NCBI GenBank assembly: GCA_029706075.1
Contig: JAINUG010000134.1
Coordinates: forward strand, 2,546,001-2,610,000
From: Aldrovandia affinis
Lineage: Eukaryota > Chordata > Actinopteri > Notacanthiformes > Halosauridae
Direction of reading: 5' to 3'
DNA: 64,000 nt
The position numbers and the translations under genes were made by a program. Numbering within the stretch: the stretch's first letter is position 1; each line of letters starts with the position of its first letter. Of the stretch, positions 5,690 through 61,524 are shown one piece after another. A model generated the notes under the pieces. That model worked only from the letters and a program-made list of their open reading frames with translations. It had not been told where the DNA came from and did not search any database.

Positions 5690-6430
5690 CTAGAGGTAGA
5701 ACCAGGCTGGCTCATTATACCCCTTTCCTACTGCGGAGCTGGAACCATACTGCTTCATTATATACCTTTCCCACCAGAGAGCTGGAACCAGCCTGGCTCA
5801 TTATACCCCTTTCCCACTGTAGAGCTGGAACCAGGCTGGCTCATTATGGCCCTTTTCCACTGTAGAGCTGGAACCAGGCTGGCTCATTATACCCCTTTCC
5901 CACTGTAGAACTGGAACCAATCTGGCTCATTATACCCCTTTCCCACTGTAAACCTGGAACCAGGCTGGCTCATTATAGCCCTTTCCCACTGTAGAGCTGG
6001 AACCAGGCTGGCTCATTATAGCCCTTTCCCACTGCAGAGCTGGAACCGGGCTGGCTCATTATACCCCTTTCCCACTGTAGAGCTGGAACCAGGCTGGCTC
6101 ATTATACCCCTTTCCCACTGTAGAGCTGGAACCAGGCTGGATTACTATAGCCCTTTCCCACTGTAGAGCTGGAACCAGGCTGGCTCATTATAGCCCTTTC
6201 CCACTGTAGAGCTGGAACCGGGTTGGCTCATTATACCCCTTTCCCACTGTAGAACTGGAACCGGGTTGGCTCATTATACCCCTTTCCCACTGTAAAGCTG
6301 GAACCAGGCTGGCTCATTATACCCCTTTCCCACTGTAAAGCTGGAACCAGGCTGGATTACTATAGCCCTTTCCCACTGTAGAGCTGGAACCAGGCTGGCT
6401 CAATATACCCCTTTCCCACTGTAGAGCCAG
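5690..6430. repeat. 43-bp minisatellite, about 17 copies
   Basis: The array has a period of 43 bases. Each unit reads AGCTGGAACCAGGCTGGCTC, then an ATTATA block, then CCCTTTCCCACTGT. Successive units start 43 bases apart (for example 5821 and 5864). Most copies differ at only a few sites, with recurring variants TATACCCC against TATAGCCC and CTCATTA against ATTACTA. Frames through the array are broken by stops, so it is not coding. Confidence 0.95.
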
Positions 6431-15668: not shown

Positions 15669-17977
15669 CTAAAGAGTATCTAGTACTACATCTAGCCTGG
15701 ACTTGAATAGCCCAAGCATTTCTGCCTCTACTACTCGACCTGGCAAGCTGTTCCAGGCATTGACAACTCTCTGTGCAAAGAAAAATTTACTAATATCTGT
15801 GCGGGATTTGCCTTTAACTAATTTCCACCTGTGGCCTCTTGTTCTGCTGACCCCACTTATCTTTAAAAATCTTAGGTATTTTACTTTGTTAATCCCTTTT
15901 AGGAATTTAAAAACCTCAATCAAATCCCCCCTAAGTCTCCGTTTGCTAAGTTTATATAGATTGAGTGCCTTAAGTCTGTCATACCAGGTATCAGTTTAGT
16001 TGCCCTTCTTTGGACTTTTTCAAGAGCTTCTATATCTTTCTTGTAGTGCGGTGCCCAGAACCGCACACAGTATTCTAAGTGCGGTCTGACAAAGGCATTA
16101 TATAACATTAATATAACCTCCTTTGATTTATACTCAATACTTTTTGCTATGTATCCCAGCAGTCTGTTGGCTTTTTTCACTGCTGTAGCACACTGCTTTG
16201 ATGCAGATAGGCTTTGATCAACTACAATTCCTAAGTCCTTTTCAAATTGAACACCTACTAACTTTTCTCCTCCCATAAAATACTCCTGTCTAATGTTTTT
16301 ATTTCCCACATGCATAACTTTACATTTAGCAATATTGAATGTCATCTGCCATGTATCTGCCCATTTTTGGATTTTGTTTAAGTCATCTTGGATTACTTTA
16401 GTCGATTCCAAACTGTTTCCCAAGTTTAGTATCATCTGCAAATTTAACTATTTTGCTACTAACGTCCATGTCAAGATCATTTATGTAAATAAGGAAGAGC
16501 AGAGGTCCCAGCACCGATCCCTGCGGGACACCACTGCCCACAGCACCGAGGTCAGATACGGCCCCACCTACTGTTACTCTTTGTATTCGCCCTTGAAGCC
16601 AATTATGAACCCACTCTGAAACTACTCCTATATTTCCTACTGAATTCATTTTCGCAATGAGCCTCTCATGTGGTACCTTGTCAAATACTTTCTGAAAGTC
16701 CAAATATATTATATCATATATATAATATCATAAGCCTGGTTCAGGTCAACACACTTTGTAGCCTCTTCAAAAAAGTCCAGGAGGTTTGTTAGGCATGACC
16801 TCCGTTTGAGAAATCCATGTTGGCTCTCCCTTAAAATACTATTATTTTTCAAGAATGATTCCAACTTATCCCTAGTAATACATTCCAGCATTTTACATGC
16901 GATGCAAGTTAAACTGACCGGCTTATAGTTCCCTGGGTCAGTACGGTCCCCCTTCTTATATATTGGAATTATACTACCTTGCTTCCAGTCATCTGGTATT
17001 TCTCCAGTGATTATGGATTGAATGAAAATATCTGTCAATGGTTTATATATAATTTCCCCAAGTTCTTTGAGTACTCTGGAATATATGCCATCTGGGCCTG
17101 CTGCCTTATTTGTCTTAATGTTTTTGTAGTTTTTGTAGTACTTCTACATCCCTTATCTCAAAGTCCTCCAAAACATTCTGTACCTTGTCTATACATTTCG
17201 GCATATTTATAACCTCTTCTCTAGTAAAGCTCTCAACAAAGTAACTGTTTAGTGTGTTAGCAATATCCTTATTTCTCATAGGCTGAGTAACAGACTGTAC
17301 CAAAAAGCAGTCAATGACCATATCTAAAAACTCCTCTTCACATTTGCCCTGACCTGTCACTATCTCCCAATTAATAGAGGGGTAATTGAAGTCGCCCATT
17401 ATTATCGTCTCTCCTTCAGCACAGATTTGTTTTATGTTACCAAAGAGCGTACTATTTATGTTACTATCTGAAGCTGGAGGTCTATAGCATACTCCTATAT
17501 TAAGGCCCTTCTCATGATCTCCCAATAATCTAATCCAGATGTCCTCACAAGAAACAAATTTATAAATTTAACGAGTTTATACCTGGAATTTCCTGCACAT
17601 TAAGATTGTCTTTCACATAAAGGGCCACTCCCCTCCTCTTTTATTAGTTCTATCCTTCCTAAACAATTTGTACCCCTCTACATTATATTCATCCCCATCC
17701 GCTGTGCCAAGCCATGTCTCAGTAATCACAACAATACCATAACCCCCATTCAACATGACAGCCTCCAGTTCCAAAAATAGTTTATGCTTCTCGCATTTAA
17801 ACACATGAGCTTCAGAGCCTTACTCACACTTATGTTGTCCTTCCCCTCCACACCTGAGTGTGCTGAACCACCTCTATTCACATTATGATCTAAAAAATCT
17901 TTATTAATTACATCCTCAGATTTATCATACTCCGCCCTGGTATCTTCCATCTGGGCAGTCTGTACCTCCCTATCCAT
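15669..17977 (-). pseudogene. CR1 ORF2: endonuclease and reverse transcriptase, disrupted
   Basis: Pieces in order on minus: start and first endonuclease strand (17977-17750, LKLMCLNARSI), the ITETWLG block (17804-17613), and the CYRPP and MGDFNYP blocks (17525-17300). After VTQPM the frame jumps to NKDIANTLNSYF, which belongs to the reverse-transcriptase N-terminus, so several hundred bases normally found between them are missing. The polymerase follows (17038-16709, KPVSLTCIACKMLE) and continues at 16703-16398 with GVPQGSVLGPLLFLIYINDL and the catalytic FADDTK motif. The C-terminal LEYCVRFWAPHY and NAWNSLP blocks lie at 16441-15669. At least four frame changes are present. The domains are those of a CR1 APE-type LINE. 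Confidence 0.88.
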
Positions 17978-18036
17978 AATACTACTACTACTACTAATTT
18001 CCCTCCCTGCCCCCCCAGTCCCTAGTTTAAATATTC

Positions 18037-18939
18037 CTACGCTACCCTAAGCATACGCTGGCCCAATGCATCTGTACCACTCCGGTTCAAGTGTAACCCG
18101 TCCCAGTGCCCCATAAACCTGTACCCCTCTTTCCTGCACCAGGTTTGTAGCCACGTGTTAAATCTCCATATAAAATTCTGCTTGCCTTTGCTAGCACGTG
18201 GTCCTGGCAGAATTCCAGAGAAGACCACCGTGGAGGTTCTGCCCCTTAACTTTGTTCCTAATTCTATACATTTGTCCTGCAGAACCTCAAATCTACCCTT
18301 ACCTATGTAATTGGTTCCAACATGGACCATGACCACTGGATCCACCCCTGCTCTGGCCAGGAGCTTGTCCGCGTGTTCCAGGAGATCTCCAACCTGAGCA
18401 CCAGGCAGGCAACATGCCATGGGAGATTCCTTTTCCCGCGAACAGACTATACTGTCTACACCTCTAATTATAGAATCCCCCACTACAATTAACTCCCTTT
18501 TCCTGGGTGGCTTGGCCGCCAGTGTGCCCTGGGGCTCATCAGTCCTCCCGCTTACAGAGGGCTGGGCCAGATCCTCTTCTTGCAAGGGCTGGAATCGGTT
18601 GGACACCAGAATATCTGGAGATGCCGCCCCTGCATGTGCGCGCCCTTTTCTATGCTGGCGCCCTACCGTCACCCAACTCTCTCTCCATACCTGCTCTAGA
18701 GTCTCCCCCCTACCCTGCTTCGGCGTGCAGACTATCTCTCTAAAGGGCGTACTGATTCGTTCCTGGAACTCTACTAATTCTGCAGGGCAGTCAAGACCAG
18801 CAAGTTGGGCTTCGAGATCAAGGATCTTGCTCTCGAGATGCTTCACAAGCTGGCATCTGTCGCAGATGAAGCCCTCCTGGAAGTCTCCTTCCAGAAACGC
18901 AATCATTCTACACTCGCACTGCACTGTCGGTGGCCACAT
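18037..18939 (-). CDS. CR1 ORF1: zinc-finger-like, coiled-coil and SGNH esterase protein
   Basis: CR1 ORF1 proteins bind the element RNA and in many vertebrate CR1s carry a lipolytic SGNH-hydrolase domain. The frame runs from ATG 18939 to the stop at 18037 and predicts 300 residues without interruption. The N-terminal part has paired cysteines (CEC, then ICDRC) followed by a leucine-rich helix (VKHLESKILDLEAQLAGL). The C-terminal half has SGNH blocks in order: VVGDSIIRG with the nucleophile serine, VHVGTNYIG with the block III Gly and Asn, and DGLHLNRSG with the catalytic Asp and His. All expected catalytic residues are present. It lies about 60 bases upstream of ORF2. The frame is open although the rest of the element is decayed, so this is probably a recent insertion rather than a domesticated host gene. 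Confidence 0.8.
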   Translation of the reverse strand: MWPPTVQCECRMIAFLEGDFQEGFICDRCQLVKHLESKILDLEAQLAGLDCPAELVEFQERISTPFREIVCTPKQGRGETLEQVWRESWVTVGRQHRKGRAHAGAASPDILVSNRFQPLQEEDLAQPSVSGRTDEPQGTLAAKPPRKRELIVVGDSIIRGVDSIVCSREKESPMACCLPGAQVGDLLEHADKLLARAGVDPVVMVHVGTNYIGKGRFEVLQDKCIELGTKLRGRTSTVVFSGILPGPRASKGKQNFIWRFNTWLQTWCRKEGYRFMGHWDGLHLNRSGTDALGQRMLRVA

Positions 18940-19509
18940 TTTCACCCCTAAATATATCTACTGCTCACCCTGTACCTAACAAATTACTGCCGAAACAGAG
19001 ACACCAAGTTGATACAAATACTATGCACTGAGGTGGTTCTGAACACTCTAATTTCTAATTGGAAACAACACTTAAAGCGAATTTTAAAACTTTCGGTCTG
19101 GTTGTCTGTAGCAAAAGTAGCAGCCAACCAAAACGGTTATACACTCTACGCTTGAAATTTAAAATTTAAATTTAAGCCAACAAAAGCCACGCGTCTGCTG
19201 GGTGTAATACAAATCGGTAACTTTTTAACAAGCTTTCCAAAGTTAGACGGGGAAAAAATTGAAAATTCCCTCTCTGTCCCCTAACGGCGACAAACGTTTA
19301 CCTTAAGAGCAAATCTTTTATCCTTTTACCTTTCTGATGATAAAACGCTGAACCCTTAGCAACAATCCAAACACAATACAAATACAAACACAATCCAAAT
19401 GATATCCTGACAGCAACAAACAATCCGCTCAAACTCAAACTCTCAGCACATATGACGCAGCAATCCCGTCAGGCAAAGCAATTTCCCGTCAAGCAAAAAA
19501 GTATGTATA

Positions 19510-23515: not shown

Positions 23516-23538
23516 CTTCTCTTTCCTTTTCTTCCTAG

Positions 23539-23872
23539 GAGAGGCCTGATCTTCACCAGCTATAGACTGTGCTAATAGCCCCTCAACAACGAGATCAACC
23601 CCTTGCCCTGCTTGGTTATTCATCCATTTATTTTATTTTCTGCATCCACTTTTCCCGACTAACTTTCCGTGGGACCAGGATGTAAATGGAGCTCGGTGTT
23701 TGAACCATGGACTTTAAAATAACTCTCCGGACGGGCCTTCCAGTTTGGATCTAGCGGTACCCCCCAAACCCTGCCTTGCGTCGTTCTGCCGCGGCGGGAG
23801 GAGTCCCGTCCCCCGAAGCCACCAGGGGGGGACATTCACAGGGGGGGGACGCGACACGCCCGTTCCCCCGCC
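23539..23872 (+). other. cdh18: 5' UTR part of the first cdh18 coding exon, with short uORFs
   Basis: The exon begins after the acceptor CTTTTCTTCCTAG. Within about 170 bases upstream of the main start lie three very short upstream reading frames. One is a start-stop ATGTAA at 23680-23685. A five-codon frame follows at 23686-23703, and a fifteen-codon frame at 23707-23754. All end before the main ATG at 23873. G runs at 23825-23830 and 23841-23848 make the stretch between the last uORF and the start codon GC-rich. Such uORFs can lower translation of the main frame; their use here is inference. Confidence 0.5.
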
Positions 23873-24105
23873 ATGAGGATTACAAGCCCCTCCTGCCTCT
23901 GCCCCTTCCTGGTCTGCCTCTGTTTCATCCAGAGGGGCTACGGGTTGGCCCACCACTCCCCGCCCGCCCGGGCCTCCGCCAAAAACCAGACCAGGCCGGG
24001 GGTGTGGTGACCGAGGTGCACCATCGGCCCAAACGCGGCTGGATATGGAACCAATTCTTTGTTTTAGAAGAGCACATAGGCCCGGAGGCTCAGTACGTAG
24101 GCAAG
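23873..24105 (+). CDS. cdh18: cdh18 first coding exon: signal peptide, propeptide, start of EC1 (apparent frameshift)
   Basis: Cadherin-18 is a type II classical cadherin, a calcium-dependent cell-adhesion protein of neurons. The frame from ATG 23873 gives [18 protein letters not shown], a hydrophobic signal peptide close to the known CDH18 start, then a short propeptide with an NQT glycosylation site. The furin site RPKR is at 24025-24036. The mature N-terminus is [20 protein letters not shown], with the two conserved tryptophans (codons 24040 and 24046) used by type II cadherins for strand swapping. The exon ends GGC AAG before GTAAGG, phase 0, as in the family. Oddity: signal peptide and propeptide are in frame 2, furin site and mature protein in frame 1. 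Read literally, frame 2 stops at TGA 24008-24010 after 45 residues. One missing G in the run 23998-24002 explains this. Sequencing error or a real null allele cannot be told apart here. Best match is CDH18 (the HHRPKR and LEEHIGP segments); CDH12 or CDH10 are less likely. Confidence 0.9.
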
Positions 24106-24142
24106 GTAAGGACCCAGCTGTGAGGTTCCTGTCCCTACCTCC

Positions 24143-36235: not shown

Positions 36236-37335
36236 ATGCGCAACGTCATGGCTTATCTGCTTCTTTTGGATGCCTGTCAGGCCCTTGGAAGAGAGCACGT
36301 CTTTAGAGAGCGCACTGATCTATTTGCAGAGACAGACGAATGGCTAGTGTCGCGTTTTCAGTCACCACGGGCTGTGCTTCTACATATATGTATGTTGTTG
36401 GAGCCGCAACTCAGCAGACAGACACGCCGATCCAACCCAATTCCACCACATCTCCAAGTACTAACCACCCTCGGATTCCTGGCCACAGGAACGTTCCAAA
36501 GGGAGGGAGATAGGGGACAGATCGGGTGTATCCCAGTCTTCTGTGAGTCGTGCGCTCCCCCCGGTCATCAAAGCCCTCATCACACTATCACCCAAGTACA
36601 TCAAATTCCCATACACCGCCGTCCAACAAGTACAGATCAAGAGGGACTTTCATGCCATCGCTGGACTACCCAACATCATCGGAGCAATAGACTGCACACA
36701 CGTACGCATTAAAGTGCCGTCCTCTGACCCATTCCCCTTCCTAAATCGCAAGCAGTATCACTCCATTAACGTCCAACTTATATCAGATGCTAAATACAAC
36801 CTGCTGAATGTCGTTGCTCAATGGCCTGGGGGAGCGCACGACTCCTTTGTGGTGCAAAACAGTGGAATTGGGACACGTCTTGCACAAGGTGCTCTACTTA
36901 TTGGTAAGTGGCTGATCAACTGTTATTTTCCACCATGCAAACTGACTATTTTAATTGAATTGAAATTCATTATTTTCTCCAGGTGATCGAGGTTATACCA
37001 TAGCTCCCTGGCTCATGACACCTCTAGTGAACCCACAGAACAGACAGGAGCGCGCTTACAACGAGCGTCATACACGCACCCGTTCTGTAGTGGAGCGCAC
37101 AATTGGGGTTCTGAAGGCCAGGTGGATGTGCCTTGACACAGCTGGTGGCAAGCTGCTCTACACCCCAGAGAAGGCATGTAAAATCACTTTTGCATGTTGT
37201 GTTTTGCACAACATTGCAATAAATGAGGGCGTTCCATTGCCGGATCCAGCACCTGCACAGGACATGCCAGTTGACCCCCCACTAGGACCAAACCATCTAG
37301 ATGGCATTAGGCAACAACTAATTGCACGACTTTGA
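36236..37335 (+). pseudogene. HARBI1-like Harbinger transposase, one frameshift, one intron
   Basis: DDE_4-type nuclease that cuts and pastes the element. ATG 36236 starts a frame covering the N-terminal helical region (ACQALGREHVF, then LTTLGFLATGTFQ). The expected EIGDRSGVSQSSVSRALPPV block lies in another frame. A 4-bp tandem duplication (GGAG) near 36502-36511 accounts for the shift. The core then reads on: IGAIDCTHVRIK with the first catalytic Asp, WPGGAHDSFV with the second, and after a 79-bp GT-AG intron (36904-36982) DRGYTIAPWLMTPL and VVERTIGVLKARW with the catalytic Glu. The stop is at 37335. Apart from the 4-bp insertion the protein looks intact, so inactivation appears recent. An in-frame family homologue elsewhere in this genome is likely. 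Confidence 0.85.
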
Positions 37336-61229: not shown

Positions 61230-61524
61230 CTTCACTCGAACTCAGACAAAGGGGATGGCTCCGTGCGGTACATCCTCACTGGGGAAGGGGCCGGAACCAT
61301 TTTTATCATTGACGAGGTCACTGGAGACATCCAAGCCATGAAGAGCCTGGACAGGGAGAAGAAGACGCACTATGTTTTACACGCACAGGCCATCGACCGC
61401 CACACTAACAAGCCCCTGGAGCCAGAGTCTGAATTCATCATTAAGGTTCAGGACATCAACGACAACGCCCCCAAGTTTCCCGACGGGCCCTTCGTAGCCG
61501 CTGTTCCTGAGATGTCTGAAGTCG
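61230..61524 (+). CDS. cdh18: cdh18 second coding exon: rest of EC1 and EC1-EC2 linker
   Basis: This exon encodes most of extracellular cadherin repeat 1. It opens [20 protein letters not shown], continues with [13 protein letters not shown] and the calcium-binding LDRE motif, then the [10 protein letters not shown] strand and the linker DINDNAPKF that binds calcium between EC1 and EC2, and finally the first residues of EC2 (VPEMSEVG). Length is exactly 295 bp, phase 0 in and phase 1 out, the typical size and phases for this exon in type II cadherins. The acceptor has a good pyrimidine tract and the donor is [31 protein letters not shown] and DNAPKF are features I associate with CDH18 rather than CDH6, 7, 9, 10, 12 or 20. 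The exon is intact, with no stop or frameshift, which argues that the locus is under purifying selection. Confidence 0.95.

Follow-up and report, generated by a model that had tools for sequence, protein, structure and literature searches.

The first coding exon of a cdh18-like gene was found split across two reading frames in the window (the whole stretch of 64,000 nucleotides analysed, C380:2546001-2610000, from an assembly of 1,222,302,279 bases in 2576 contigs). Comparison with a second copy of the gene and with other conserved genes of the assembly indicated that the frame break is, with high probability, a residual indel of the assembly consensus and not the mark of a dead gene. The break is therefore probably absent from the DNA of the animal.

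Structure of the split first coding exon

The features of the first two coding exons were as follows.

23537-23538, plus strand: pyrimidine-rich AG acceptor before exon 1, from the sequence
23539..23872, plus strand: probable 5' UTR portion of exon 1, from the sequence and from the second copy, which has a comparable acceptor tract and UTR in the corresponding position
23707..23754, plus strand: upstream ORF of 15 codons with an ACCATGG start context; the second copy has one of 14 codons in the corresponding position
23873..24010, plus strand: 5' half of exon 1, encoding the signal peptide and propeptide up to the stop TGA 24008-24010; residues 1-32 match the second copy at 56%
23993..24012, plus strand: interval holding the frame change, including the G run 23998-24002; 20 nt against 21 nt in the second copy
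24013..24105, plus strand: 3' half of exon 1 with EVHH, RPKR and GWIWNQFF, followed by a donor GT at 24106; 90% match to the second copy
61230..61524, plus strand: exon 2, first cadherin repeat, open, with AG before and GT after, from searches and exon joining

Translation of the window showed that the frame opened by ATG 23873 runs for 45 residues (MRITSPSC...KNQTRPGVW), which comprise the signal peptide and propeptide, and ends at the TGA stop at 24008-24010. The furin site RPKR, the mature GWIWNQFF terminus and the splice donor lie in a second frame, open from 23755 to 24123; a GTAAGG donor at 24106 closes the 3' half of the exon. In the assembled exon the signal peptide is not in frame with the mature protein, and the break falls within 23993-24012. 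The open frame 23755-24123 contains no Met over its whole length, so the half with the furin site and GWIWNQFF has no upstream ATG. The sequence-only reading had described the stop after 45 residues, the second frame with its furin site, mature terminus and splice junction, and the lack of an in-frame upstream ATG, and the translation agreed with it on all of these.

The two halves were compared separately with exon 1 of the second copy. For the 5' half the score was 115 in its own frame against 18 and 15 elsewhere, and for the 3' half 165 against 22 and 21. Since each half fits that exon in one frame alone, the split is more than chance. The stretch from the NQT codons to EVHH measures 20 nt in the window copy against 21 nt in the second copy, and the frame change could thus be placed to 23993-24012 and no closer, because the stretch is too diverged between the copies for the exact base to be named. 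The sequence-only reading had put the lesion in the G run at 23998-24002, said to be one base short. The run is indeed five G long and is the likely, though unproven, site of the lesion; the position is less certain than had been claimed. The region is GC-rich, with a GC content of 0.684 over 23740-24040, and runs of seven and eight G stand some 160 to 170 bases upstream.

The upstream ORFs of both copies share the start ATGGAC, and the one at 23707-23754 may be a conserved translational control element. Elsewhere in the window, LINE-like retrotransposon remains were found on the minus strand at 16712-18957, with an endonuclease (PF14529, 17118-17567) and a reverse transcriptase (PF00078, 16712-17143) domain. 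The ORF at 18040-18957 adjoining these domains had a GDSL-lipase-like match below the Pfam cut-off. A DDE transposase (PF13359), presumably of the Harbinger family, lies on the plus strand at 36465-37332 with its two halves in different frames. Finally, a tandem array at 5691-6427 consists of 17.1 copies of a 43-base unit with 89% matches.

The second copy and the remaining exons

Separate protein searches with each half of exon 1 led to one strong second copy, at C2245:3334300-3334527 on the minus strand, where both halves stand in one open frame of 136 aa that reads MRITAPSC and, further on, a segment of 26 residues. The earlier claim that both halves belong to one cdh18-like gene was borne out by this copy, which carries them in a single frame. 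The second gene extends over approximately C2245:3241332-3334527 on the minus strand, has the same exon layout as the window copy and is 79.7% identical to it over exons 2-11; it differs in its first exon, which is in one frame. A DNA search, which detects near-identical copies and missed the diverged second copy, gave one close match only and no alternate haplotype copy.

A presumed human CDH18 sequence, used as a query, picked out ten exons (2-11) on C380; exon 2 lies in the window and the last exon near 2703883-2704379, and every match was free of stops. A script that permitted GT donors and AG acceptors only joined exons 2-11 into a single 716-codon frame ending in a stop, compared to 720 codons for the second copy. 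Exon lengths were equal between the copies in eight of the nine exons 2-10, and the ninth differed by one codon. The sequence-only reading had taken an intact second exon to favour an error or a recent lesion, and exons 2-11 proved to be all open and joinable. No further lesion was seen in the 716 codons, nor any sign of decay in the window copy beyond the single break.

Pfam reported Cadherin (PF00028) in five stretches together with PF01049, whose library name is CADH_Y-type_LIR and which we take to be the cadherin cytoplasmic region of older naming. A hydrophobic stretch was visible by eye before the cytoplasmic part in the translation of the window copy. In type II classical cadherins the mature terminus carries Trp2 and Trp4 after a furin site, and RPKR-GWIW in exon 1 supplies both the furin site and, directly after it, these two residues. 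Over exons 2-11, identity to the presumed human CDH18 was 76.4% for the window copy and 73.6% for the second copy, and over the cytoplasmic exon 79% and 67%, respectively. The gene resembles CDH18, a type II classical cadherin, in its signal peptide and propeptide, furin site, GW-W terminus, five repeats and cytoplasmic family, and differs from it in having exon 1 split over two frames in the assembly. No CDH18 chain occurred among the 60 listed of 162 PDB matches, and the name CDH18 rests on the presumed human sequence.

Between the two copies, pN/pS was 0.21 for the 715 codons of exons 2-11. Within exon 1 it was 0.73 for the 39 codons of the 5' half and 0.06 for the 31 codons of the 3' half. 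A relative rate comparison gave 56 sites for the window copy and 37 for the second copy, among sites shared with the presumed human CDH18 (p = 0.06), which does not support a faster change of the window copy. Among matched cadherin first exons, C380 carries five and C2245 four; together with the cdh18 duplicate, these suggest a teleost genome duplication.

Frame breaks and unbroken sequence elsewhere in the assembly

Small frame breaks were also found in some other conserved single-exon genes. A query of 728 residues matched 61 protocadherin exon places, 11 of them over fewer than 660 residues. Seven of these 11 were fetched at the break, with 700 to 1010 bases read at each and not whole exons, and all seven showed one frame change after which similarity resumed at once or within a few codons; by hand count from match coordinates, each was short by one or two bases. 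The other four were uninspected: two list two stops, and in the other two the open frame is long and the divergence may be confined to one end. One TGA each is listed for a further three full-length rows, also uninspected. Two Kv-like genes and one LINGO-like gene had a frame change between adjacent matches, and hand counting showed that C1446:2377678-2378467 (Kv-like) was long by one base, while C1812:5039024-5039742 (Kv-like) and C1794:1003960-1005662 (LINGO-like) were short by one base. Another LINGO-like place, on C1943 and uninspected, consisted of two pieces separated by 1.9 kb, with two stops in the second piece.

A run of five or six G stood at three of the seven protocadherin breaks, all at one homologous site, against a background of 56 in 5890 positions (0.95%) near a G/C run of at least five in the protocadherin stretches. 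The three count as one of five sites, with a chance of about 0.05. In L054 (768), L055 (755) and L056 (763, reverse complement), from the C2011 and C1765 protocadherin clusters, the frame change fell at the same G run near query residue 243, which may reflect a consensus error or a site prone to slippage in all three. The two Kv-like junctions and the LINGO-like one contained no run of five or more. Homopolymer error as a general rule was rejected on these counts, namely one of five protocadherin sites and none of the three Kv and LINGO junctions.

Over 129 kb of protocadherin exons, the seven breaks correspond to about one per 18 kb, with lengths entered by hand (a rate from 10 breaks was also computed). 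At one break per 18 kb, the chance of hitting a gene of 2.4 kb is about 0.13. True lesions may be among these control breaks, and the protocadherin clusters may hold true pseudogenes.

Much conserved sequence was clean. In other cadherin first exons, Met and the Trp terminus stood in one frame in all 18 counted, across 16 G/C runs of at least five; the count leaves aside four of 22 matches (L021-L024, with E above 0.2), takes the first Met of the open frame as the start, so that a short slip upstream of a later Met could escape, and cuts the first exon of L017, L018 and L020 one residue short. The joined exons 2-11 of both cdh18 copies contained a further 16 such runs, all in frame. Thirteen Kv1-like places matched over at least 394 residues showed no frame change, with one listing an uninspected TGA; several lower rows of the Kv-like listing have one stop each and were likewise uninspected. 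Five LINGO-like places were unbroken.

Origin and meaning of the frame break

The sequence-only reading had offered either a homopolymer error or a loss-of-function allele, with an error or a recent lesion preferred. The open exons 2-11 and the breaks elsewhere in the assembly support that preference, although the placement at one particular base of the G run is unproven. A real and recent frameshift allele, segregating or fixed in the fish, with function carried by the second copy, appears unlikely on the sequences compared. The break does stand in the assembled sequence, a second copy with a single-frame exon 1 could buffer the loss, and the 32 G/C runs in other cadherin coding sequence that were in frame (16 + 16), like the 13 Kv1-like places without a frame change, agree with a lesion of the gene itself. 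Against this, the 716 codons carry no other lesion, the window copy shows no sign of faster change than the second copy (56 vs 37 sites, p = 0.06), and comparable breaks occur elsewhere in the assembly. An allele of this kind would yield a 45-residue peptide, and nonsense-mediated decay would be expected, as a stop 95 nt ahead of the first coding junction, with ten exons downstream, should trigger it.

It is very improbable that the gene works without the upstream half in that frame, be it through a different start, through an alternative 5' exon that is spliced in beyond the lesion, or through ribosomal frameshifting that joins the halves. Entry in frame would meet no stop, as the 3' half is open back to 23755, yet an alternative start within that frame is ruled out by its lack of Met. 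The upstream half also matches the signal peptide and propeptide of the second copy, which has an ordinary single-frame exon, and by inspection CCG GGG GTG does not fit X XXY YYZ, the usual slippery pattern for frameshifting. An old, decaying cdh18 pseudogene would account for one frame-disrupting lesion but has next to no probability, given that exons 2-11 are open and join through to the terminal stop and that the cytoplasmic exon is closer to the presumed human CDH18 (79%) than that of the second copy (67%). A long-dead pseudogene was rejected on the same joining, and the pN/pS of 0.21 and the lack of any further lesion seen also speak against it.

An assembly error is favoured because similar small frame breaks occur in some other conserved single-exon genes. 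Under an assembly error, the gene would be a functional teleost-type cdh18, one of two copies, with a small residual consensus indel where the GC-rich sequence runs from the N-glycosylation codons to EVHH. Exon 1 of the animal would then most likely read in one frame through the signal peptide, a short propeptide, the furin site and the mature Trp terminus. At the level of listings and the beginnings of abstracts, the literature surveyed included gene-fragmenting indel errors in long-read assemblies (PMC12007338) and held nothing on a cdh18 lesion. As far as that level of detail goes, the breaks reported here are similar to such errors in being single and small, with similarity on both sides and partly at homopolymers, long-read sequencing being a candidate source of the error.

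If the break is an error, cdh18 may be missed or shortened in automatic annotation, giving the impression of a gene loss that never happened, and the same caution would apply to further genes that seem to be lost from this assembly. A real break would represent a natural null of cdh18 in a fish that has another copy, which would be useful for understanding how duplicated cadherins share their work.
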